A DNA stretch of 20,746 bases from the IMG/VR virus record IMGVR_UViG_3300017708_003286, positions 1-20,746 of that record; one strand, given 5' to 3'. The notes under the pieces are model-generated. The model ran no database searches. It was not told where the DNA came from and was given only the letters and a program-made list of their open reading frames with translations. The position numbers and the translations under genes were made by a program. This DNA is from a virus. Every line of letters begins with the position of its first letter. Positions within the stretch are counted from its first letter, which is position 1. Positions 11,165 through 20,052 of the stretch are shown in pieces.

Positions 11165-11605
11165 TTACTTTTTCTCCTTAACCTCCAGTTTTTCACCTTT
11201 TGGATCAGGCTCTTTTTCATCATCTTTTGATAAAAGTTTCTTTTCGGCAGCTTCAGAGTCTTCTTTACTAATCTTTCCATCCTTCTTCATCTTATCGAGG
11301 ATGACTTTTTGTAATGCGGGTGGAAGTTGCTTTTGCTTATCAGTAAGCTCCCCTTTGCTATCGTCCATCATCATGGCTCGCATCTTGTCGTATTGAACGG
11401 CGCAAGCTGCATAAGTACTCTTTTTATCCATTCCTTCAGTATCTGTAAGGGCTTTATCGTCAGATGCACAAACGCTCATATAAGATTTATACAAACCTGC
11501 TTCTGATCCGCTATACTTGCTAGCGATGGATACTTCTGCTTCCCCATTTTTAAAACTAACAGTTTTCTCAAGGGGTAATTCAATGTCTTCTGGATTAATT
11601 TTCAT
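11165..11605 (-). CDS. Small charged head protein, unknown function
   Basis: The likely product is 146 residues, starting at the ATG at 11605 that overlaps the end of the portal gene by 11 bases. A longer frame to 11662 would lie fully inside the portal gene. I do not recognise a family. The N-terminal half contains LYKSYMSVCASDDKAL and KKSTYAACAVQYDKMRAMM, two cysteine-containing helical segments; the second half is a Lys/Glu/Asp-rich disordered region ending with PKGEKLEVKEKK. The stop is followed at once by the protease-scaffold ATG, with AAGGAG inside the 3' end of this gene. Position between portal and protease suggests an assembly role such as a core or initiation factor. Confidence 0.6.
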   Translation of the reverse strand: MKINPEDIELPLEKTVSFKNGEAEVSIASKYSGSEAGLYKSYMSVCASDDKALTDTEGMDKKSTYAACAVQYDKMRAMMMDDSKGELTDKQKQLPPALQKVILDKMKKDGKISKEDSEAAEKKLLSKDDEKEPDPKGEKLEVKEKK

Positions 11606-13571
11606 GACTATGGTATAAAATTGCTGATGGATAAACTTCCAAGTTATGTTTATTAGATACACTCAAAACCTCATTCATTACATTTAATTCTTCTATAAGT
11701 TCGAAATTATCAATACAAGCTTCAAGGGTTTGATTCCACTGTTCACGCTTGGAGGCACAAATAATCGACTCACAAAGCTTGGTGACCATCTCTTCTTGTT
11801 GTTCATTTAACTCTCCACCAAACTTCTCTTCAGCCCTCTCCCTAGCTATAGAATTAAAGGCTTCTACGGCATAAATAGTAGATTGAATGTTTGTTCTAGA
11901 GTATTCTGCGTTAGACAGTTTTGGCTCATCTACTGTGGTAGTGCCATGTGGCCTACCAGCAGCTTCAGGGGTTTTAGCCTTATCAGGCTCTTCGTCCTCA
12001 ATCATTGGCACACCGCCAACAATAGGATTGTAAAAACCTTCTTTTCTTTGTTCTATAAAGGCTGTTTGTGCTGGCGCGATATCTTCCGCATTTGGGAACT
12101 TGCCATTATGGAACATCTCCATTCCTTGTTGAGGAGTAAGAATACCAAGCTCCATAAGGCGGGTAGAAACACGCATAAGCTGGGTTTCATCACGCATGTC
12201 GATATCCTTCATTGTAGCAGTCGGATATGACTTGAACCCAAGAGTATTAGCAATACGCTTTATCTCCTTCTGTAAAAAATCATTCAAGAAACAACTTCTA
12301 GCTTCTTTTAGACGGTCAATAAAGATTTGGGCTTTAACTTGTGTTGAATTGTATTTCTCATCTCCAACGACAATGTTTTGCAGACCTTGCTTGATATCAT
12401 CATTCAGAATCTGATACTTTGCGGGTCCAAGAACTTTATTCAGATCTGGAATAACAAAATCAGCTTTAGTAGTATAATCTGATATCAGAACCCGACCGAC
12501 ACTCTCATTCTTAAAGAGGTGTTGCATTGCGTTAATGTTATTGGCGTTCACTCCACCTTTCTCAGGTTCAGCGCCCATAGTGATAAGAAGAATGACATTC
12601 TCAACAGTACGGGTAATTGCTTGATCCATTTTTTTAAGCTCAAGCTTAGCATTGATATCTTCTAATACTGGATACCCAAATGGTATTGCAAATGGCTCAT
12701 AATCTTGTTTCTTATAGAAAGAGAAGCTAAGACGTTTGGGGTCTAATTCAATTTTGATTCCATCTGTGTAGTATGAACCATCCTTGATCAGCTTCTTCAT
12801 CTCAGGGTCTAAAGAATCATAAATTAACTGATCTTCTTCTGTAGATGGGTTCTGTAAGCGAGAAAGCTCATACTCAGATAAAACTTTTTCATATGCCCCA
12901 ACATTAAATGTGGTAGCCCTCTTAGATACAATATCGAAAGGGTTTAGTAGCACATACTTGACTGGAATCTTATTAGCGGAAGGATTAATAGAGCCAACTT
13001 GATTCATAAGTCGAGCATAATCCTCCACGTTAAATTCCCCATCAAATCTATAGACAAAAATATTACCACTACGATAATACTCACGGAAGTATTGATCTTT
13101 TAGGTTTTGAAGGTTAATGCGCTTGAAGAACTGTTGGAAGAATTCACGACTCTTTTTTGTCCCTCCCTCTAAGTAGATTTCAGTGTTCGCGAACTCAGAC
13201 ATAACGTCCACAGCGTTTCTGAATACAGCAACGTTGGCGTAAGCTTTCTGGCATAGCTCGATTCCTTCACGAACATTTACGCCATCAGCAGCATACTGGT
13301 AAGGTAACATACCCTTTCGTATGCTAGAGAATCTGTCGATAGTATTACTTACTGCTGAGCGATTAACCCTTGTAGCCTTTGAAGAGCTAGCCCTGTTAGT
13401 TCTAGCTGTAGACACACTTTTATACGAAGCGTCTGATGTATAAAATGATTCACCTAGCAATTCTGGGGTATATGCTTCTTCAGAAGCTTGGCTCATAGCT
13501 AAATCTTCCAAGTTATTGTTTTTATTGAACTTTTTCCAATAGTCTGATTTTTTTGTATACTTCCTAGCCAT
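11595..13571 (-). CDS. Phage portal protein
   Basis: The product is 658 residues. Portals form the dodecameric ring at one capsid vertex through which DNA is packaged and ejected. The order here suits the family: a basic, Ser-rich N-tail; QYFREYYRSGNIFVYRF and KYVLLNPFDIVSKRA in the first wing; YPVLEDINAKLELKKMDQAITRTVENVILLITMG leading into the central helical part; DRLKEARSCFLNDFLQKEIKRIANTLGF as the stem helix; and a helical crown with a long acidic, variable C-terminus. It is on the strand downstream of the terminase and has its own TATAAT-containing motif immediately upstream, without a Shine-Dalgarno site. The portal call rests on size, layout and gene order. Confidence 0.85.
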   Translation of the reverse strand: MARKYTKKSDYWKKFNKNNNLEDLAMSQASEEAYTPELLGESFYTSDASYKSVSTARTNRASSSKATRVNRSAVSNTIDRFSSIRKGMLPYQYAADGVNVREGIELCQKAYANVAVFRNAVDVMSEFANTEIYLEGGTKKSREFFQQFFKRINLQNLKDQYFREYYRSGNIFVYRFDGEFNVEDYARLMNQVGSINPSANKIPVKYVLLNPFDIVSKRATTFNVGAYEKVLSEYELSRLQNPSTEEDQLIYDSLDPEMKKLIKDGSYYTDGIKIELDPKRLSFSFYKKQDYEPFAIPFGYPVLEDINAKLELKKMDQAITRTVENVILLITMGAEPEKGGVNANNINAMQHLFKNESVGRVLISDYTTKADFVIPDLNKVLGPAKYQILNDDIKQGLQNIVVGDEKYNSTQVKAQIFIDRLKEARSCFLNDFLQKEIKRIANTLGFKSYPTATMKDIDMRDETQLMRVSTRLMELGILTPQQGMEMFHNGKFPNAEDIAPAQTAFIEQRKEGFYNPIVGGVPMIEDEEPDKAKTPEAAGRPHGTTTVDEPKLSNAEYSRTNIQSTIYAVEAFNSIARERAEEKFGGELNEQQEEMVTKLCESIICASKREQWNQTLEACIDNFELIEELNVMNEVLSVSNKHNLEVYPSAILYHSHEN

Positions 13572-13619: not shown

Positions 13620-15482
13620 AGAAATAAACATTGGGGTAAACGTCTCTGTAATATCAGACCCTTGATCATCTAACATGTCAAAATATACATTCATGCCCCA
13701 GTTACCTAGAACTAAAGCGGAGTAGGAGTCTTTTCGAGCTTTGTCAGCACCTCTCTGCTTACGAAGGTTAGGAGGTAGATCAAAACTTTGTGTTCCTTGT
13801 GGCGAAGTGGTAACTTGTACTAAAGCACACTGTACTTTTATAAGATCCATCATATCTCTTTGATGCTCAACAAAGTCAATCATCTTAGCTCCTTTGTTTT
13901 TCTCTTCAGCATCTTGATTTCTCAAGAACTTCAAATTTTCAATGGGGATATTAGCTTTTCTCTGCATATTGTAGTTGTCATCCATAGCAGACCCAGCAAA
14001 GTATAATCTTTTATGATCGAATGCTGATTGTAAACTTTCGTTAGCGAAACGAATCCATGTAGAGCTAGGCTTTCTTAAAAACACAAATTTTCTTGATGAT
14101 TTATCTATTTGACTCTTAAGCTTCCTAATACCTTTGGCATAATCTTTAGGGTTATCTAAATCAGCTTCTACAGTATCTATTTTTAAATTTAATTTTTTAA
14201 ATATACCACTTTCCTTACATGCACTCAAAAATTGAACACCACCATTATAATCGCCAACCACCATTTCGATATTGAAGTGGGTCAACACATAAGCCATGTA
14301 TCTAATGTGTGTTTGAAGGTTTGAGCCAGAAACAGCATAGCTATGCACTACAACGCCTTTCCTTGTCTCTGGGTGGATCTTTATCAAAAGTATGGCGAAA
14401 TCGTCTGAGCTTTCACTCTCAGACCAAGAAGGGTCAAATGCAAGGATGTATTTGGAGGAGGGGTCGCCAATTACCTCGACACACTGCCCTTCACCATCAG
14501 GGAGAGTACATGAAGCCATTTTACTAACTTTAAAATATCCAGAACTATCATCTGTGAACACAGCTCCAAATTCTCGGTCAAACTGAGACTGGCTCATTGT
14601 TGATTTAGATTGATTAATCAAATTTTGATCATATAGCTGTGGAGGCGCACAATCATAACTAAAATGCATAATTACCCTATGAGCGCCATCTTGTTTATTC
14701 TCATTGATAATTAGAGATTCATATTGTTGATAAAGCTTGAATAAATATTCAAATTTATACGATGCAGAAGATAAACCAATGATTTTGTTATTTGGCCATT
14801 GCTTCCTTTCCTCTTCGGTCATCTCGCCCTCTGCGATCATTTGAGTTTCTAAATCATAGATCTCTTGACGTTCAGTAGGGTTCTCAACAACAGAAAGGAA
14901 TGGCATAATGACCTCATTGAAGATCTTTTCTGGCATAAGAAGAAGCTCGTCGATAATCATACGTTGGAAGCGAAAACCACGAAGCTTTTCGCCATCGCCT
15001 AGAGGCAAAGCTCTGATACTACTAGAACCTATCTCCATGACCCATTCATCATTCATTTTTGATGTCCTAGTTATACATTGAGATAAGAACTCAGCTTTTG
15101 GGCTTCTAGCAATATCCTCAATCTTTTTAAATATCATCTTGGACTGACGGAATGATTTAGATATGATTCCTATCTGCACACCTTGATTCATGATAGCGTC
15201 TAGAATAGCAAATATAGCAGTAGAGAAAGATTTACTCATACCACGACTCCATATGCCCAAAAAGTAGTCCGTCTCCATCATGGACTTGACAGCCATATGT
15301 TGAAACGGAAATAATTTCACACCTGTGAATAACTCACAAGCAAAAGATGGATTATCTCTTAAAAACTTATAAAGTAAAAGCTTAGCCTCTCCTTCTTCGA
15401 TGTATCCTTCTTTGGAAAGTATCTCTTGGTTTACTTCTTTGAACTTCTTGTACAGGTCTTGATTGCCTTCTATCCAAGCCAT
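13617..15482 (-). CDS. terL: Terminase large subunit (packaging ATPase and nuclease)
   Basis: The product is 621 residues, a normal length. It cuts the replicated DNA into genome units and pumps it into the prohead through the portal. Visible motifs: an adenine-binding-like FQHMA (60-64); a Walker A of the deviant type WSRGMSKSFS (78-87), with SKS in place of GKS/T as in many terminases; Walker B MIIDE (175-179) with its catalytic Glu; a coupling motif GLSSAS (about 236-241); and nuclease acids in ILAFDPSW (Asp350), VVGDYNGG (Asp411) and KMIDFVEHQRD (Asp536 and/or Asp543). The start ATG is inside a run of seven A residues and overlaps the upstream nuclease frame by 101 bases; an AAGGA site lies about 11 bases upstream. 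The overlap may couple their translation. Confidence 0.96.
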   Translation of the reverse strand: MAWIEGNQDLYKKFKEVNQEILSKEGYIEEGEAKLLLYKFLRDNPSFACELFTGVKLFPFQHMAVKSMMETDYFLGIWSRGMSKSFSTAIFAILDAIMNQGVQIGIISKSFRQSKMIFKKIEDIARSPKAEFLSQCITRTSKMNDEWVMEIGSSSIRALPLGDGEKLRGFRFQRMIIDELLLMPEKIFNEVIMPFLSVVENPTERQEIYDLETQMIAEGEMTEEERKQWPNNKIIGLSSASYKFEYLFKLYQQYESLIINENKQDGAHRVIMHFSYDCAPPQLYDQNLINQSKSTMSQSQFDREFGAVFTDDSSGYFKVSKMASCTLPDGEGQCVEVIGDPSSKYILAFDPSWSESESSDDFAILLIKIHPETRKGVVVHSYAVSGSNLQTHIRYMAYVLTHFNIEMVVGDYNGGVQFLSACKESGIFKKLNLKIDTVEADLDNPKDYAKGIRKLKSQIDKSSRKFVFLRKPSSTWIRFANESLQSAFDHKRLYFAGSAMDDNYNMQRKANIPIENLKFLRNQDAEEKNKGAKMIDFVEHQRDMMDLIKVQCALVQVTTSPQGTQSFDLPPNLRKQRGADKARKDSYSALVLGNWGMNVYFDMLDDQGSDITETFTPMFIS

Positions 15483-16398
15483 TTTTTTCTAATTCCTTTT
15501 CCCAAAAATATTGTAAGTCAACATTCCACAGCTTCTTACCACAGCAGAGGATCTTGGGTATTAACTCCTCACTGCCTTCTCTAGACCCACTAAACACAAA
15601 TTGGCAACAGTCACTAAATTGCGCCTCGATAGATCTCATTCTGCTAAACACAAATCCCATATTGAATTTTTTGTAAGCAGCACTATTTGTTTTATAAATT
15701 TGATTATAATCAGCCTCAACAACGATAAATAAGAAACACCCCAAACTTTGGCATCTTTCTATCTCTCTAACAAACCTAGCATAACCATTTGTTACAGTGG
15801 CAGCAAAATCTTGGAACGACTTTCTTTCTGCATGAGTATGGGTGTAGTTTTTCGGGGGTAGAGTGTAATCACCGAAGTCTAGTTTAAAAACATAAGAATT
15901 TTTAAAGTTTAGAGGCTTATTCTCTCTTGTGTCGATCCAAACCTCTTCACTGCTATAATTTTCAAAAAACTCTTTACATACATTCTTTCCATACGCAGGA
16001 CTCACCCCTATTTGCTCACAGAATGCGTTGTAACCGCCGAACAGCTTTTTTATGATGTCCAACGTAGGCCAATCGCCCGTCTTCAGATATAGGCTCGATG
16101 GAGCTTGTTTGAGGTTCTTGTCTTCTATTCTTTTTTTGAACTTCTCCAAAATATATTTTTTTACCTCATCTTTGGGCGCTTTCTCAAACCAAAGGTTCAT
16201 GTTATTGGTTGTGTTGAAATCTGTAGAGAAGTACTGCTTGGCGTTTTTGAATTCGATAGGTTTTTCAGTCAGCCTGTCGAAACGTGGATAGTGTTTGACA
16301 TAGTAGTCACCAAGAAGCATATCGTGCTTCTTAATGTGCATATGTAGACCACGTTGCGTATCGAACGTCTGACCACACTCTTTACATTCAAATTGCAT
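15382..16398 (-). CDS. C2H2 zinc finger - ERCC4-type nuclease
   Basis: The product is 338 residues. The N-terminus holds a C2H2 finger (Cys5, Cys8, His21, His25). A middle part with GDWPTLDIIKKLFGGYNAFCEQIG (about 108-131, read as shorter pieces GDWPTLDI and GGYNAFCEQIG) resembles repeats that accompany homing-type nucleases. From residue 155 the ERCC4 core appears: IDTREN (Asp156, Arg158, Glu159), LDFGDYTL (Asp177), AERKSFQDFA (Glu191, Arg192, Lys193, Asp197), then FIVVEAD. These match the DxRE...GDY...ERKxxxD pattern of XPF/Mus81-type nucleases that cut branched DNA. It overlaps the upstream gene by 11 bases and TerL by 101. The last 33 residues are Arg-rich, encoded by DNA of the TerL start, and may be non-functional. 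A role in clearing branched replication DNA before packaging is inferred. Confidence 0.82.
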   Translation of the reverse strand: MQFECKECGQTFDTQRGLHMHIKKHDMLLGDYYVKHYPRFDRLTEKPIEFKNAKQYFSTDFNTTNNMNLWFEKAPKDEVKKYILEKFKKRIEDKNLKQAPSSLYLKTGDWPTLDIIKKLFGGYNAFCEQIGVSPAYGKNVCKEFFENYSSEEVWIDTRENKPLNFKNSYVFKLDFGDYTLPPKNYTHTHAERKSFQDFAATVTNGYARFVREIERCQSLGCFLFIVVEADYNQIYKTNSAAYKKFNMGFVFSRMRSIEAQFSDCCQFVFSGSREGSEELIPKILCCGKKLWNVDLQYFWEKELEKNGLDRRQSRPVQEVQRSKPRDTFQRRIHRRRRG

Positions 16399-17437
16399 CG
16401 TCCTGACTAATACCTAAGATTCGCGCTTTCCACTCTGCCATACCCTCCATCCGCTCAGCCTCTTCCTTAATTAACTTTTTTTGCATTTCTGCCATGCGAA
16501 CCATATTCTTTCGCTCTTCCTCTTCTTGAAACATCTGAACGATGGATAAAAATGACGCATTGTTCTTCTGAGACTTCTTCATGCGTTCAGCACGGTCACC
16601 TTGTAACTTCTTCGTTAAGTTCTCAATACGGGTTTCACATTGATGATATTCTTGCGATTTAGCTTTGATGATCTCCGCGAGACGCACGGTCATTTCGGTT
16701 TGATCATCAGCAACGTCAAACATATCGTTGAGTTTGTTTAGGTGAGCAGACACAACTTCTAAGTTAATAACCTCTTTGCAGACGTTAAGGTATAGGTTAA
16801 TCTCGTCTGCGGTTAAATCAGGCTTGTCCCAACTTAAACGAATAAATTCTTGTTCGAATAACTCTCTGTCTGGCTTGTTAAGATAATTATTGATGATTTT
16901 TAAAAATCTACTATTGGATAGATTGATTTGAAGCTTGTCTACACAGACTTGCTTTTGCCTGTTTAGTTTGCGATCATCTAACTCTAATCCTGTAGCATCA
17001 TTGATTTTCTTTACCACACGACTTGGGCTTTTGGGCGGAACGTAATCATTTACGGCAGCGGAGTCTTGCGATGGAACGAAATCGGGATTGACCTCGTTGA
17101 TGTGCGCCAGAACCGTTCTCTGCTCATTACTTAGTGGCTTTACTCTCTTTTCTGGAAATATAAGCTTGGCAATCTCCAACGACGACATTCCCTCCTGAGC
17201 TTGCTGGATAATGAACTCTTTTTGAGAATCGTTTAGTTCTATTTTGTCCTGTGGTTTGCGGCGGGTTGTTTTATAATCAATATTATTCTCTATTAAGTAT
17301 TTTCGAACAGCCCGACCCTCTTTCGTTCGACCATCTAAATCATCATCCCTAAAACATTTTTGGGTGAGTTCATTTAAATTTGTGACTTTATCCACATTGT
17401 TTTTTATATAGTCTTTTTGATCATCTGTTAAATCCAT
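16388..17437 (-). CDS. Duplicated HTH-like module protein, terminase small subunit candidate
   Basis: The product is 349 residues. Two clear tandem copies of a ~54-residue module occupy residues 2-55 and 67-120: each starts L-D-QK--I, has L-E/I-----F in the middle and ends R-V----I--N--D-F/Y. They look like helix-turn-helix DNA-binding units. The middle (about 150-260) is helical and could form the ring found in TerS proteins; the C-terminus (about 255-340) is a charged coiled coil. TerS proteins recognise phage DNA for packaging and usually have about 150-200 residues, so this one is long. The place two genes before TerL and the binding modules support the candidate, but no signature proves it. 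Its start overlaps the previous stop (TAATG) and its end overlaps the nuclease by 11 bases. Confidence 0.6.
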   Translation of the reverse strand: MDLTDDQKDYIKNNVDKVTNLNELTQKCFRDDDLDGRTKEGRAVRKYLIENNIDYKTTRRKPQDKIELNDSQKEFIIQQAQEGMSSLEIAKLIFPEKRVKPLSNEQRTVLAHINEVNPDFVPSQDSAAVNDYVPPKSPSRVVKKINDATGLELDDRKLNRQKQVCVDKLQINLSNSRFLKIINNYLNKPDRELFEQEFIRLSWDKPDLTADEINLYLNVCKEVINLEVVSAHLNKLNDMFDVADDQTEMTVRLAEIIKAKSQEYHQCETRIENLTKKLQGDRAERMKKSQKNNASFLSIVQMFQEEEERKNMVRMAEMQKKLIKEEAERMEGMAEWKARILGISQDDAI

Positions 17438-18114
17438 TACAAATCCCTTCCATCTTTTAAAATTTTTACTGCAATCTTATGAAATTTACACTTGAGATTC
17501 TTTACTTGTCTGTAGCCAATCTTACGATTGTTATCAGACAGTTTATACCCCATATACTTTGCTACATCTTCTTCTGTACAATCCTCGAAATATAACATAT
17601 GATATGCCCCGTATTGTTTCTCTCCAAGTTTTTTTAGCATTTTCTCGTTAAGCTTCTGTGTATCAGCATCATAATCAAAATATGAATTACACTTAACGTT
17701 TATAACATGCTCAGTATCATCCAGACTAGATGCAGTTTTCAATTCTAGTCCAAATTTTTTCTTCTTTGACCATCTAGCATAATCTTTGCACGAAACATCT
17801 TGGTTACCACTTACGGTCTTAGCACATAATTCATCCCGTGCATGTATGCATGTCGAACAAGGTTTGATATAAGACCCATAATGGTTTCTTATAAGATTCC
17901 ACATCCTATTGGTGATTACACGACTAAGCCACGGCTCCAATGGACGCGACTGATCCCACATGTGCCACTTTTGGGCGATGTGTGATTTTACCACCTGCTC
18001 AACATCTTCGAAGTCAAACCACTTGATAGCATCTAAACGCCACCTTGATCTCTGCTTCTTAACTGCTCGATCTATGATGTCTTGGTAGTCTTCATACTTC
18101 TTCTCTTCGGGCAT
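17437..18114 (-). CDS. Sigma-70-family-like transcription factor with Cys cluster
   Basis: The product is 225 residues. Residues about 25-80 resemble sigma region 2: FEDVEQVVKSHIAQKW, then PLEPWLSRVITNRMWNLIRNHYG, the pattern of ECF-type factors that bind core polymerase and the -10 box. An insertion follows with Cys86-x2-Cys89-x7-Cys97-x11-Cys109, which could bind zinc. The C-terminal part (about 155-215; YHMLYFEDCTEEDVAKYMGY then VKNLKCKFHKIA) has the layout of a sigma region 4 helix-turn-helix. Phages such as T4 use a small sigma factor (gp55) for late genes; I infer the same here, and the shared GTGTA motif is the candidate target. The gene is coupled to both neighbours by TAATG overlaps. 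It might alternatively be a divergent DNA-binding protein without sigma activity. Confidence 0.75.
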   Translation of the reverse strand: MPEEKKYEDYQDIIDRAVKKQRSRWRLDAIKWFDFEDVEQVVKSHIAQKWHMWDQSRPLEPWLSRVITNRMWNLIRNHYGSYIKPCSTCIHARDELCAKTVSGNQDVSCKDYARWSKKKKFGLELKTASSLDDTEHVINVKCNSYFDYDADTQKLNEKMLKKLGEKQYGAYHMLYFEDCTEEDVAKYMGYKLSDNNRKIGYRQVKNLKCKFHKIAVKILKDGRDL

Positions 18115-18437
18115 TAAGGTTTAGAAGTGAAATCATTCAGGTCGTACGATCCCTTCCCCTTATAGTCAGGTGGTGTGTTTTGACCCGCTAAAGAACCAAT
18201 GGTAAAAGTTTTAGGTTTTTCAATTTCTACCTGCAACCCCCGCAGTTGTGGGACGAACTCTGCGTCGGTTTCGTCATCTGAAACTACAGAGGCTTTGGTT
18301 TGATTGGGAACCTGCTCCACCGCAGCTTGAGATTGTTGCTCCCCTCCAAAACTTGCCCCACATTTAGAACAAAAATTAGGTTTAGCAAAATTATATTCAA
18401 TCTTAACCCCACAACTATAACAAAATATGTGACTCAT
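18114..18437 (-). CDS. Zinc-ribbon protein with disordered C-terminus
   Basis: The product is 107 residues. Cys6-x2-Cys9 and Cys23-x2-Cys26 form a classic zinc ribbon (FCYSCG ... FCSKCG). The rest, with GGEQQSQAAVEQ, acidic DDETDAEF and LAGQNTPPDYKGKGSYDLNDF, is probably disordered and ends in a short motif that could bind a partner. Similar short zinc-ribbon proteins occur in transcription and replication complexes. The stop overlaps the sigma-like gene's ATG, so the two proteins are made together; a role as a partner in phage transcription is inferred. It has a TATAAT box exactly six bases before the ATG. Confidence 0.65.
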   Translation of the reverse strand: MSHIFCYSCGVKIEYNFAKPNFCSKCGASFGGEQQSQAAVEQVPNQTKASVVSDDETDAEFVPQLRGLQVEIEKPKTFTIGSLAGQNTPPDYKGKGSYDLNDFTSKP

Positions 18438-18472
18438 CTTACAATTATATGAAAATTAGTAAGTAATTACAC
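18438..18472 (-). promoter_or_regulatory. Promoter region before the zinc-ribbon/sigma/packaging unit
   Basis: Two elements are seen on the minus strand. GTGTAATTACTTAC (18459-18472) nearly copies the motif before 3881. TATAAT (18444-18449) lies six bases before the ATG at 18437. The first overlaps the stop codon of the PhoH-like gene. Either or both could start the long unit running to TerL. Confidence 0.5.
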
Positions 18473-19197
18473 TATTTTTCACCTTCTAACTTTTTAATAA
18501 TGAATTTTAATATTTTACTACGCACAATATCGCCTTCATTAAAGCTAAATGTGTGAATGCCCATATCTTTGGATTCATCATCATTGAATTTTTCGAACAT
18601 TGGCTTGAATCCACTTTTTCCATTGATATCGCTTTGAAAAAAATCGCCTCCAATAATGATTTTACTGTTTTCACCTATGCGAGTGATCAAAGTAGTTAAT
18701 TCTTTTAGCGTAAAATTCTGCGCTTCATCTGCAAAAACTAATTTATTCTGCCAACTCGCGCCACGAAGGAAGTTTATTGGAACCGCTGACACTTTTTCGC
18801 GTTGTTTTAAGTAGATCGCGTCCCCAGAAGCAACGATTTCTTCCATTTTATCATAAAGTGGACACAAAAAAGGATCAAACTTGTCTGCAATATCCCCGGG
18901 TAAGCTTCCCAACCCCGTATCAGCGCTTTCAGCAATACTTCGAACATATAAAATATCTTTAGAGAAATCCTCCTCCAATAATTTTAACATCCCATACAGG
19001 GACATGTAGGTCTTTGAGCTTCCCGCAGGGCCAGAAACAAAAATAATCTTAGACTCTTCGTTTAGTATAAGGTCTAAAAACTTCTTTTGCTTGGGGCTGA
19101 ATCTAAAATTTCTTTTATTAAACTTTATCGATCTTTCAAAATCCGCTAGCAACTCAAACGGAACCTCTTTTTCCTTACCAACCTTTTTTCGGGCCAT
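18472..19197 (-). CDS. phoH: PhoH-like ATPase
   Basis: The product is 241 residues. PhoH-family proteins are P-loop ATPases related to superfamily 1 helicases and are common in marine phages, though their role is uncertain (RNA metabolism or helicase-like activity is suggested for the family). Motifs: Walker A GPAGSSKT (56-63), RSIAESADTGLGSLPGDI (85-102) typical of the PhoH core, Walker B VFADEAQN (153-160) and GGDFFQSD (182-189) like the sensor in this family. The N-terminus is basic. The ATG is preceded by the 18-base GTGTAATATAATATACAT motif without a Shine-Dalgarno site. The next gene starts 34 bases after its end, with its own promoter-like motif, so it may not be strictly co-transcribed with the sigma unit. 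Confidence 0.9.
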   Translation of the reverse strand: MARKKVGKEKEVPFELLADFERSIKFNKRNFRFSPKQKKFLDLILNEESKIIFVSGPAGSSKTYMSLYGMLKLLEEDFSKDILYVRSIAESADTGLGSLPGDIADKFDPFLCPLYDKMEEIVASGDAIYLKQREKVSAVPINFLRGASWQNKLVFADEAQNFTLKELTTLITRIGENSKIIIGGDFFQSDINGKSGFKPMFEKFNDDESKDMGIHTFSFNEGDIVRSKILKFIIKKLEGEK

Positions 19198-19221: not shown

Positions 19222-20052
19222 TTATAGAATAACTTCTCTAATGTCAGCTTTTGTTTCTAAGGTACTGCCTCCAACAATAGAGTAGCCTTCGTTAATTACA
19301 TGCGCTCCAGAATTTACAATTAAATCAAAATTAGATCCACCGCGAGTTATCCCAGAACCGCCAACATCTCTTAGACCGATCCCAAAATCACTAGATAATT
19401 TATTGCCACTAAAATTAATCAACTGATTCAATCCTGTAGACTGGACATTCATATCCACCTGTACACTGTCAACAATTTGGCTTGTCGCCTGTTGCGAACC
19501 TAAAGTATAAATTGGAGTTCTTGAATATGTTTTAGAATAATTAAGTTCATTGATAATATCAGAAGCTACCACATTACCTGCACCACTTAATAAGCAATTA
19601 TGACCATAGACTACATCGTTTGTACTTAGAAAACTATCTTGTGCAGTATTGGAGCCAGATAAAGGTGAATCACTAGGATTATAACTACTAAACGTAGCCC
19701 TACCCACCACTGGCTCAAATGGTTTAACCGACACAGTAAAGTTATCAATAAAACAAGAATTATAAGTATTACCCCCAAGAAATAATGTCATAGCGCTCTG
19801 CCCAGTGTTGTGAGAACTATCAAATAAAAATTTAACGAACTCATCACTACCAGCGCTAGTGGGAGTCCTCACTAGAAAATCCAAACTTATCTTGCAATCT
19901 ACATCACCATTAAACCTCAACTGATCGCCAGCGTCGATATTCGCGCCCAATTGTCTTTTTACTTGATTTTTAGTAGAGAAATCTACCCCAACTTTCGTTG
20001 CCAATACGGGATCGCCTCCATCTAATCTTACCGCCATATTCCGATATGTCAT
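19222..20052 (-). CDS. Tail-tube-like virion protein (paralogue)
   Basis: The product is 276 residues, beta-rich, Ser/Thr/Gly-rich. It shares ordered landmarks with the tail-tube candidate at 5792-6898: CFIDNFTVSVKPFEPVVG (100-117) aligns with FVSDYSLELAVGSLPTVS (135-152 there); YSRTPIYTLG (176-185) aligns with LSRTPLQRLG (248-257 there); and both end with GA/GC-x-hydrophobic strands. I therefore read it as a divergent tail-tube-fold paralogue, possibly at the tail tip or a baseplate hub, or a minor tube subunit. The gene lies far from the tail block, at the start of the minus-strand series and 25 bases before phoH's start. Its ATG is immediately downstream of GTGTAGTATAAGGT, so it likely has its own late promoter. 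Confidence 0.65.
   Translation of the reverse strand: MTYRNMAVRLDGGDPVLATKVGVDFSTKNQVKRQLGANIDAGDQLRFNGDVDCKISLDFLVRTPTSAGSDEFVKFLFDSSHNTGQSAMTLFLGGNTYNSCFIDNFTVSVKPFEPVVGRATFSSYNPSDSPLSGSNTAQDSFLSTNDVVYGHNCLLSGAGNVVASDIINELNYSKTYSRTPIYTLGSQQATSQIVDSVQVDMNVQSTGLNQLINFSGNKLSSDFGIGLRDVGGSGITRGGSNFDLIVNSGAHVINEGYSIVGGSTLETKADIREVIL

Follow-up and report, generated by a model that had tools for sequence, protein, structure and literature searches.

The IMG/VR virus record IMGVR_UViG_3300017708_003286 is a stretch of 20,746 bases (hereafter the window) and is judged to be a fragment. On its minus strand, a frame of 338 residues lies between the gene for the terminase large subunit (TerL) and a gene for a helical protein of 349 residues. 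The product joins a predicted N-terminal C2H2 zinc finger, a helical middle region and a nuclease domain of the ERCC4 (XPF/Mus81) type, and we refer to it as the C2H2-ERCC4 protein. A preliminary description of the window had recognized the nuclease from the motifs IDTREN, LDFGDY and ERKSFQDF, and both the frame and the three motifs were found as described. The Pfam family ERCC4 (PF02732) matched the protein at 27.1 bits, over the cut-off of 24 (E 4.5e-6), and phrog_3490, labeled 'ERCC4-type nuclease' in PHROGs, matched it at E 1.1e-9. The GDXnERKX3D site was complete, with G176-D177, E191-R192-K193 and D197.

The predicted model of the window protein had a mean predicted local distance difference test (pLDDT) score of 87.8, with 267 of the 338 residues at 90 or above. 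The folded part stopped near residue 305, and residues 309-338 scored below 50. The 19 top rows of a Foldseek search against the PDB were all XPF, Hef, Mus81, FANCM, ERCC1 or repair complexes containing XPF. The small GTPases and others that ranked below the XPF family were set aside as unrelated. The best VIA-align match was the XPF of A. pernix with DNA (Z 11.8, root-mean-square deviation 2.7 over 124 residues), and Hef gave a Z of 11.1, whereas the first restriction enzymes appeared at a Z of about 5. A profile search against PDB sequences also returned Hef (1j22, E 1.7e-4), amid many zinc fingers. The folded part of the model had no tandem helix-hairpin-helix (HhH) domain after the nuclease, and no HhH family of Pfam matched the window protein. 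The predicted fold is that of an XPF/Hef-type nuclease, modeled with high confidence, which agrees with the ERCC4 fold anticipated earlier. On the sequence match, the active site and the predicted fold, we assign the protein to the ERCC4-domain superfamily.

The residues of the finger and of the nuclease site are strongly conserved. C5, C8, H21 and H25, as well as D156, R158, E159, D177, R192, K193 and D197, were invariant in all 208 distinct complete proteins. This invariance of the zinc ligands far exceeds chance. Position 191 was Glu in 98 of the 208 and Asp in 110 (ERK to DRK), and G176 was replaced by Ala in five. In Pfam, zf-C2H2 matched the window protein at E 0.00029 and other C2H2 families matched more weakly, all below their own curated cut-offs. 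Both zf-C2H2 and ERCC4 matched 47 of 47 diverse relatives at E<=1 (best E 2.2e-5 and 1.6e-16, respectively). With Cys2-His2 ligands present at finger spacing, the protein is predicted to carry its own zinc finger, as had been proposed. Positions 14, 16, 17 and 20, which we take to be the usual base-reading positions of a finger, varied among the relatives, while H19 and Y32-Y33 were invariant. This combination of variable base-reading positions with fixed ligands, H19 and Y32-Y33 would fit recognition of DNA shape, or a protein contact, slightly better than the reading of one site.

The weakest part of the preliminary description was its homing-nuclease-like repeat. The family HNH_repeat (PF18780) matched 18 of the 47 relatives (best E 0.0014), but it did not match the window's own protein. 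None of the seven Pfam families that matched the window protein at E<=1 was an HNH, GIY-YIG or LAGLIDADG catalytic domain, and the endonuclease VII family (PF02945) gave no match at the same threshold.

The gene was found in many related loci. A first protein scan of IMG/VR gave 44 loci, and an alignment scan yielded 352 stretches that encode it; 80 of these were kept. One scan of a bacterial and archaeal genome collection added seven loci (L176-L182). The proteins of L176 (88%), L177 (38%), L178 (35%) and L179 (41%) were full-length with the finger, and L180-L182 matched the nuclease part only. In L182 (3608-4081), a contig of a Spartobacteria metagenome-assembled genome (MAG), the ERCC4 protein stands alone with 157 residues, downstream of a 785-residue frame that looks primase/helicase-like by eye.

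We then looked at the place of the gene with TerL, rather than ERCC4, as the query. This gave four clades with 80 loci each, 320 in total, with no overlap found between the sets; at least 22 of the 320 had also come up in the ERCC4 scans. The ERCC4 gene lay directly 5' of TerL on the same strand in 309 of the 320 loci (80 of 80, 151 of 160 and 78 of 80), which confirmed the expectation of a conserved gene order rather than random places. In three loci of the first set with less than 300 nucleotides of upstream DNA, the match covers just the gene end. Ten of the 11 loci without ERCC4 also have less than 300 nucleotides upstream. The eleventh, L413, is taken up below; the frame in its first 784 nucleotides (L413:1-784, about 250 residues) looks methyltransferase-like by eye. 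In the three later sets, the finger pattern was present wherever the locus included the N-terminus (136 of 136 and 71 of 71). The start-to-start distance between ERCC4 and TerL was 916 nucleotides in all 80 first-clade loci (extrapolated for partial matches), and the overlap with the 349-residue gene was identical in 147 loci. In the other sets, a similar gene adjoined ERCC4 wherever it was found (135 and 71 loci), and in the remaining 16 and seven loci the ERCC4 frame starts at or within 300 nucleotides of the locus end. TerL identity across the four clades goes down to about 37%.

The search for cultured relatives covered 50,697 phage records. Neither the 349-residue protein, nor residues 1-151 of the window protein, nor the N-terminal 140 residues of a deep relative had a match there. 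The whole window protein weakly matched six halovirus records, and the matches listed for TerL were all below 30% identity and covered 44-66% of the protein. A set of 72,556 plasmids gave no match. The lineage is a large group of uncultured marine phages, and no close cultured relative was found in the phage collection.

To compare the histories of the genes, 71 representatives were dereplicated at 90% from the 204 loci that hold all three genes complete. The Mantel r of ERCC4 was 0.892 against TerL and 0.947 against the 349-residue protein, with null maxima of 0.113 and 0.105. Within three clades the values were 0.85-0.97, and none of 999 shuffles was as high; for ERCC4 against TerL they were 0.90-0.93 within each of the three. 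The ERCC4 tree had 44 well-supported splits, 33 of them shared with the TerL tree and eight in conflict with a well-supported TerL split. These conflicts indicate that some exchange or error exists. TerL and the 349-residue protein had seven conflicting splits, about the same number. Overall, the C2H2-ERCC4 gene appears not to be mobile and to be inherited together with TerL and the 349-residue gene.

The nuclease and TerL frames overlap out of frame by 101 nucleotides (window 15382-15482), and on the other side the nuclease frame overlaps the 349-residue gene by 11 nucleotides, in keeping with the tightly coupled unit first described. The TerL start codon (15482) lies right behind the codon of residue 305, so that the end of the folded nuclease coincides with the beginning of TerL. 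The nuclease frame stopped at residue 338 in all 13 close relatives listed; for the wider clade the range was 334-338, and the tail was shorter or absent in deep relatives. The ratio of nonsynonymous to synonymous divergence (dN/dS) of the nuclease core was 0.05-0.09 in the window clade, in the four of seven comparisons with measurable dS. For the tail, four of the seven comparisons (L018, L023, L027 and L035) gave a dN above dS, the ratio was 0.52 and 0.89 in two others (L012 and L036), and dS was 0 in L009. We take the nuclease tail to be carried along by the TerL frame.

The surrounding genes form a conserved block (Table 1). In close relatives the order is the 276-residue gene, PhoH, zinc-ribbon-like, sigma-like, 349-residue, C2H2-ERCC4, TerL and the 658-residue (portal-like) gene. 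The deep MAG relatives L177-L179 retain PhoH, the zinc-ribbon-like, sigma-like and 349-residue-like genes, C2H2-ERCC4, TerL and the portal-like gene. The identity of the TerL neighbor stood (phrog_2 and PF03237); the other neighbor is a candidate terminase small subunit (TerS), as first labeled. The 349-residue protein matched no TerS or other terminase family in Pfam or PHROGs and had no Foldseek match at E<=0.001. In its model, two groups of three helices lie toward the N-terminus and one long helix toward the C-terminus, and the structural Z values of 9-11 came from helical matches and were uninformative. Because no terminase family matched, the TerS label stays a guess. In the distant cultured phages Stahl, MaeS, TR-TP2 and phiCDIF1296T, the genes directly 5' of TerL matched neither the 349-residue nor the ERCC4 profile. 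Three aspartates of TerL (D350, D411 and D543), presumably those of its nuclease to judge from terminase motifs, were invariant in the aligned relatives. The sigma-70 region 2-like protein, whose gene is coupled to the packaging genes and keeps its place in the deep relatives, is a possible candidate for a late-gene regulator. The 276-residue gene was 33-80% identical among close relatives, against 75-99% for PhoH and 79-99% for the 349-residue gene, and TerL was also far more alike; it appears to be a fast-evolving gene beside the conserved block.

Table 1. Features of the window around the C2H2-ERCC4 gene
Feature	Position	Strand	Basis
C2H2-ERCC4 protein, 338 residues	15382..16398	-	Open reading frame; Pfam and PHROGs matches; one match per long record
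Predicted C2H2 zinc finger with ligands C5, C8, H21, H25 (residues 3-25)	16324..16392	-	zf-C2H2 match; ligand invariance
Middle region of helices (residues 64-147) with weak likeness to HNH_repeat	15958..16209	-	Helices in predicted model; PF18780 in relatives
Predicted ERCC4/XPF-type nuclease domain, residues 150-305	15484..15951	-	Pfam, PHROGs, predicted structure, structural matches
Disordered tail, residues 309-338, out of frame within TerL start	15385..15474	-	pLDDT <50; dN against dS; shorter or absent in deep relatives
TerL, terminase large subunit, 621 residues	13617..15482	-	phrog_2 E 2.3e-22; PF03237 over cut-off; start conserved in aligned relatives
349-residue helical protein, candidate TerS	16388..17437	-	Directly upstream; adjacent wherever found
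225-residue protein of the same operon, weakly similar to sigma-70 region 2	17437..18114	-	PF04542 E 0.00085, below cut-off; conserved order
107-residue zinc-ribbon-like protein, same operon	18114..18437	-	Weak zinc-ribbon matches; conserved order
PhoH-like ATPase, head of conserved block	18472..19197	-	PF02562 E 2e-44; conserved order
658-residue protein, putative portal by position	11595..13571	-	After TerL in relatives; no convincing family match
276-residue gene beside PhoH	19222-20052	-	Order in close relatives

The long relatives are larger than 100 kb, and their replication genes are bacterial. One of them (G001, 104 kb) had Pfam and PHROGs matches to DNA Pol III alpha (E 1e-61), DnaB, DnaG, a RecA-family protein and ribonucleotide reductase, and also to tape-measure and Phage_tail_L families. 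These replication and tail matches imply that the lineage is one of tailed bacteriophages, and the tail is probably long and non-contractile. The bins of L176-L178 may hint at a host in the Flavobacteriaceae/Flavobacteriales, but two different phage contigs (L176 and L177) fell into one bin. No end repeats were found in any record examined. Among its matches at 38001-57500 (L163), G001 also has a run of sugar- and capsule-type genes, for GDP-mannose dehydratase, epimerases, NeuB, a cytidylyltransferase and an aminotransferase.

Pfam ERCC4 matched over its cut-off, once each, in ten of the 11 long records (55-170 kb). The eleventh (G014) does hold the gene (locus L333, found with the lineage profile), in a form below the reach of Pfam. 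RuvC, RusA and endonuclease VII families matched in none of the 11, with positive controls for RuvC and RusA and an endonuclease VII control that stayed below cut-off. T7 endonuclease I had no match in the long records either, but its control also failed, so this result is uninformative.

The closest structural counterparts are archaeal Hef and XPF (PDB 1j22/1j24, 2bgw and 2bhn), which share the nuclease fold and the GDXnERKX3D site (Z 10.9-11.8). Unlike in these enzymes, neither a tandem HhH domain nor a helicase was seen in the window protein; it has an N-terminal C2H2 finger and a helical region, and its gene lies in a phage packaging operon. Haloarchaeal tailed viruses (HF2 NP_542526, HRTV-27 YP_010358264 and HSTV-2) encode the same nuclease domain with 31-36% identity over part of it, and HSTV-2 was the top BFVD match of the model. 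However, the haloviral ERCC4 nucleases stand alone, with about 145-160 residues and no finger, and no terminase annotation was present within 6 kb of the gene in the two records inspected. The HGTV-1 protein YP_008059421, which by its length is probably the BFVD row R4TMX2, is likewise a phage nuclease with an N-terminal finger, but an HNH enzyme. Its gene lies at 119 kb, far from the HGTV-1 TerL at 2-3 kb, and HGTV-1 was rejected as a relative.

Magroviruses are described, in the available part of the paper, as marine tailed viruses that almost all have an ERCC4-type nuclease (PMC10160649). Their hosts are archaea and their DNA polymerase is of family B, whereas the long relative G001 has bacterial Pol III alpha; the likeness noted is one between descriptions. 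Matches of G001 to bacterial Pol III alpha, DnaB and DnaG led us to set a magrovirus origin aside; no polymerase matched among the ten window proteins scanned with Pfam and PHROGs, and no search was aimed at PolB. In the excerpt of another report, ERCC4 is ORF14 and the terminases are ORF24-25 (PMC10535572). The literature matches listed, mostly open-access and without bioRxiv preprints, contained no description of a C2H2-ERCC4 gene or of its order.

We suggest that the C2H2-ERCC4 protein is a structure-specific endonuclease of the ERCC4 (XPF/Hef-like) type that belongs to the packaging machinery and removes branches from the DNA entering the motor, a proposal in which we place about even confidence. 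The protein would be made together with TerL. Its N-terminal finger and helical region would bind branched DNA, a role that falls to a tandem HhH domain in cellular XPF/Mus81, and the nuclease would cut flaps, Y-forks or four-way junctions from replication and recombination. The motor would thereby receive unbranched DNA, the same job as that of T4 endonuclease VII (gp49), carried out by another fold. T4 gene 49 is not known to lie in a terminase block. As reported in the accessible part of the source, loss of T4 endonuclease VII harms the formation of DNA-full heads, and the T4 resolvase frees Y-DNA stalled in the motor (PMC10893049). Besides this precedent, branch removal is supported by the ERCC4 match over the Pfam cut-off, the model, the XPF-type matches, the invariant site, the adjacency to TerL, the Mantel correlations, the finger pattern and the lack of RuvC, RusA or endonuclease VII family matches in the 11 long records.

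Several points weigh against branch removal. The enzymatic activity is itself predicted from the fold and the site, and neither a tandem HhH domain nor a partner subunit, both used by cellular XPF/Mus81, was seen here. Neighboring genes need not share a pathway, and PhoH and the sigma-like gene stand in the same block. L413 is a real exception to the fixed place, with 785 nucleotides of upstream DNA and, where ERCC4 would be, another frame (about 250 residues). G001 encodes a nuclease of the PDDEXK_1 family and an endonuclease of HNH_3. The lack of other resolvases is weak evidence, since the records are fragmentary, diverged RuvC-like enzymes can escape Pfam, the families searched are a part of the known resolvases, and the controls for endonuclease VII and T7 endonuclease I were below cut-off and negative, respectively.

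The main rival is that the protein helps genome-end maturation. Together with TerL, and perhaps with the 349-residue protein, it would cleave the concatemer where packaging begins, in the manner of HK97 gp74, with ERCC4 replacing HNH. The gp74 gene adjoins the HK97 terminase genes, and the position of the window gene is of the same class. The fixed adjacency and coupling to TerL, the DNA-binding-type finger and the HNH_repeat-like middle also fit such a helper. In the available part of the source, gp74 is a nuclease that works with TerL and promotes its cos cleavage in vitro (PMC9410871); its fold is HNH, while the window protein is of the ERCC4 type and has no HNH domain. Against end cutting, the finger differs among relatives at its base-reading positions, TerL keeps its candidate nuclease aspartates, and no record with end repeats was found that would point to a packaging type. 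ERCC4 enzymes, moreover, are known for structure-specific and not for site-specific cutting. We regard end maturation as possible but less likely than branch removal.

A general recombination or repair nuclease, lying in the late operon by chance and acting mainly during replication, seems unlikely. This explanation could draw on the magrovirus paper, the available part of which groups the ERCC4 nuclease with replication proteins (PMC10160649), on the haloviral ERCC4 genes, which lie in regions with primase or helicase and HNH genes, and on the RecA-family, DnaB, DnaG and Pol III matches of G001. However, the gene adjoins TerL in every TerL locus with room except L413, and the long records show one match only. 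Homing enzymes fused to zinc fingers occur, and the HNH_repeat-like middle of 18 of the 47 relatives might suggest a mobile homing-type nuclease lodged between the terminase genes. This idea is largely refuted and we consider it highly improbable: the gene occupies one place in 309 of the 320 TerL loci, the sole exception with room (L413) holds a different gene, the distances follow those of TerL and the 349-residue protein within clades, and the window protein has no HNH, GIY-YIG or LAGLIDADG match.

A role in packaging, by branch clearing or end cutting, is partly supported by the position and the fold. Phage DNA is branched when packaging starts, and the route by which it is cleared is known for few models only. 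The fold and the place of the C2H2-ERCC4 protein suggest that in these phages the packing of DNA goes along with its clearing or trimming. We tentatively consider that an XPF-type nuclease with its own zinc finger may be a permanent third terminase component, riding with TerL and clearing or cutting junctions at the motor entry throughout the lineage. With a junction-type nuclease tied to TerL in all four clades, it becomes directly testable whether debranching and packaging are linked. If true, the XPF/Mus81 nuclease fold would be used outside repair, and the gene would be a marker for a widespread lineage of uncultured marine phages.

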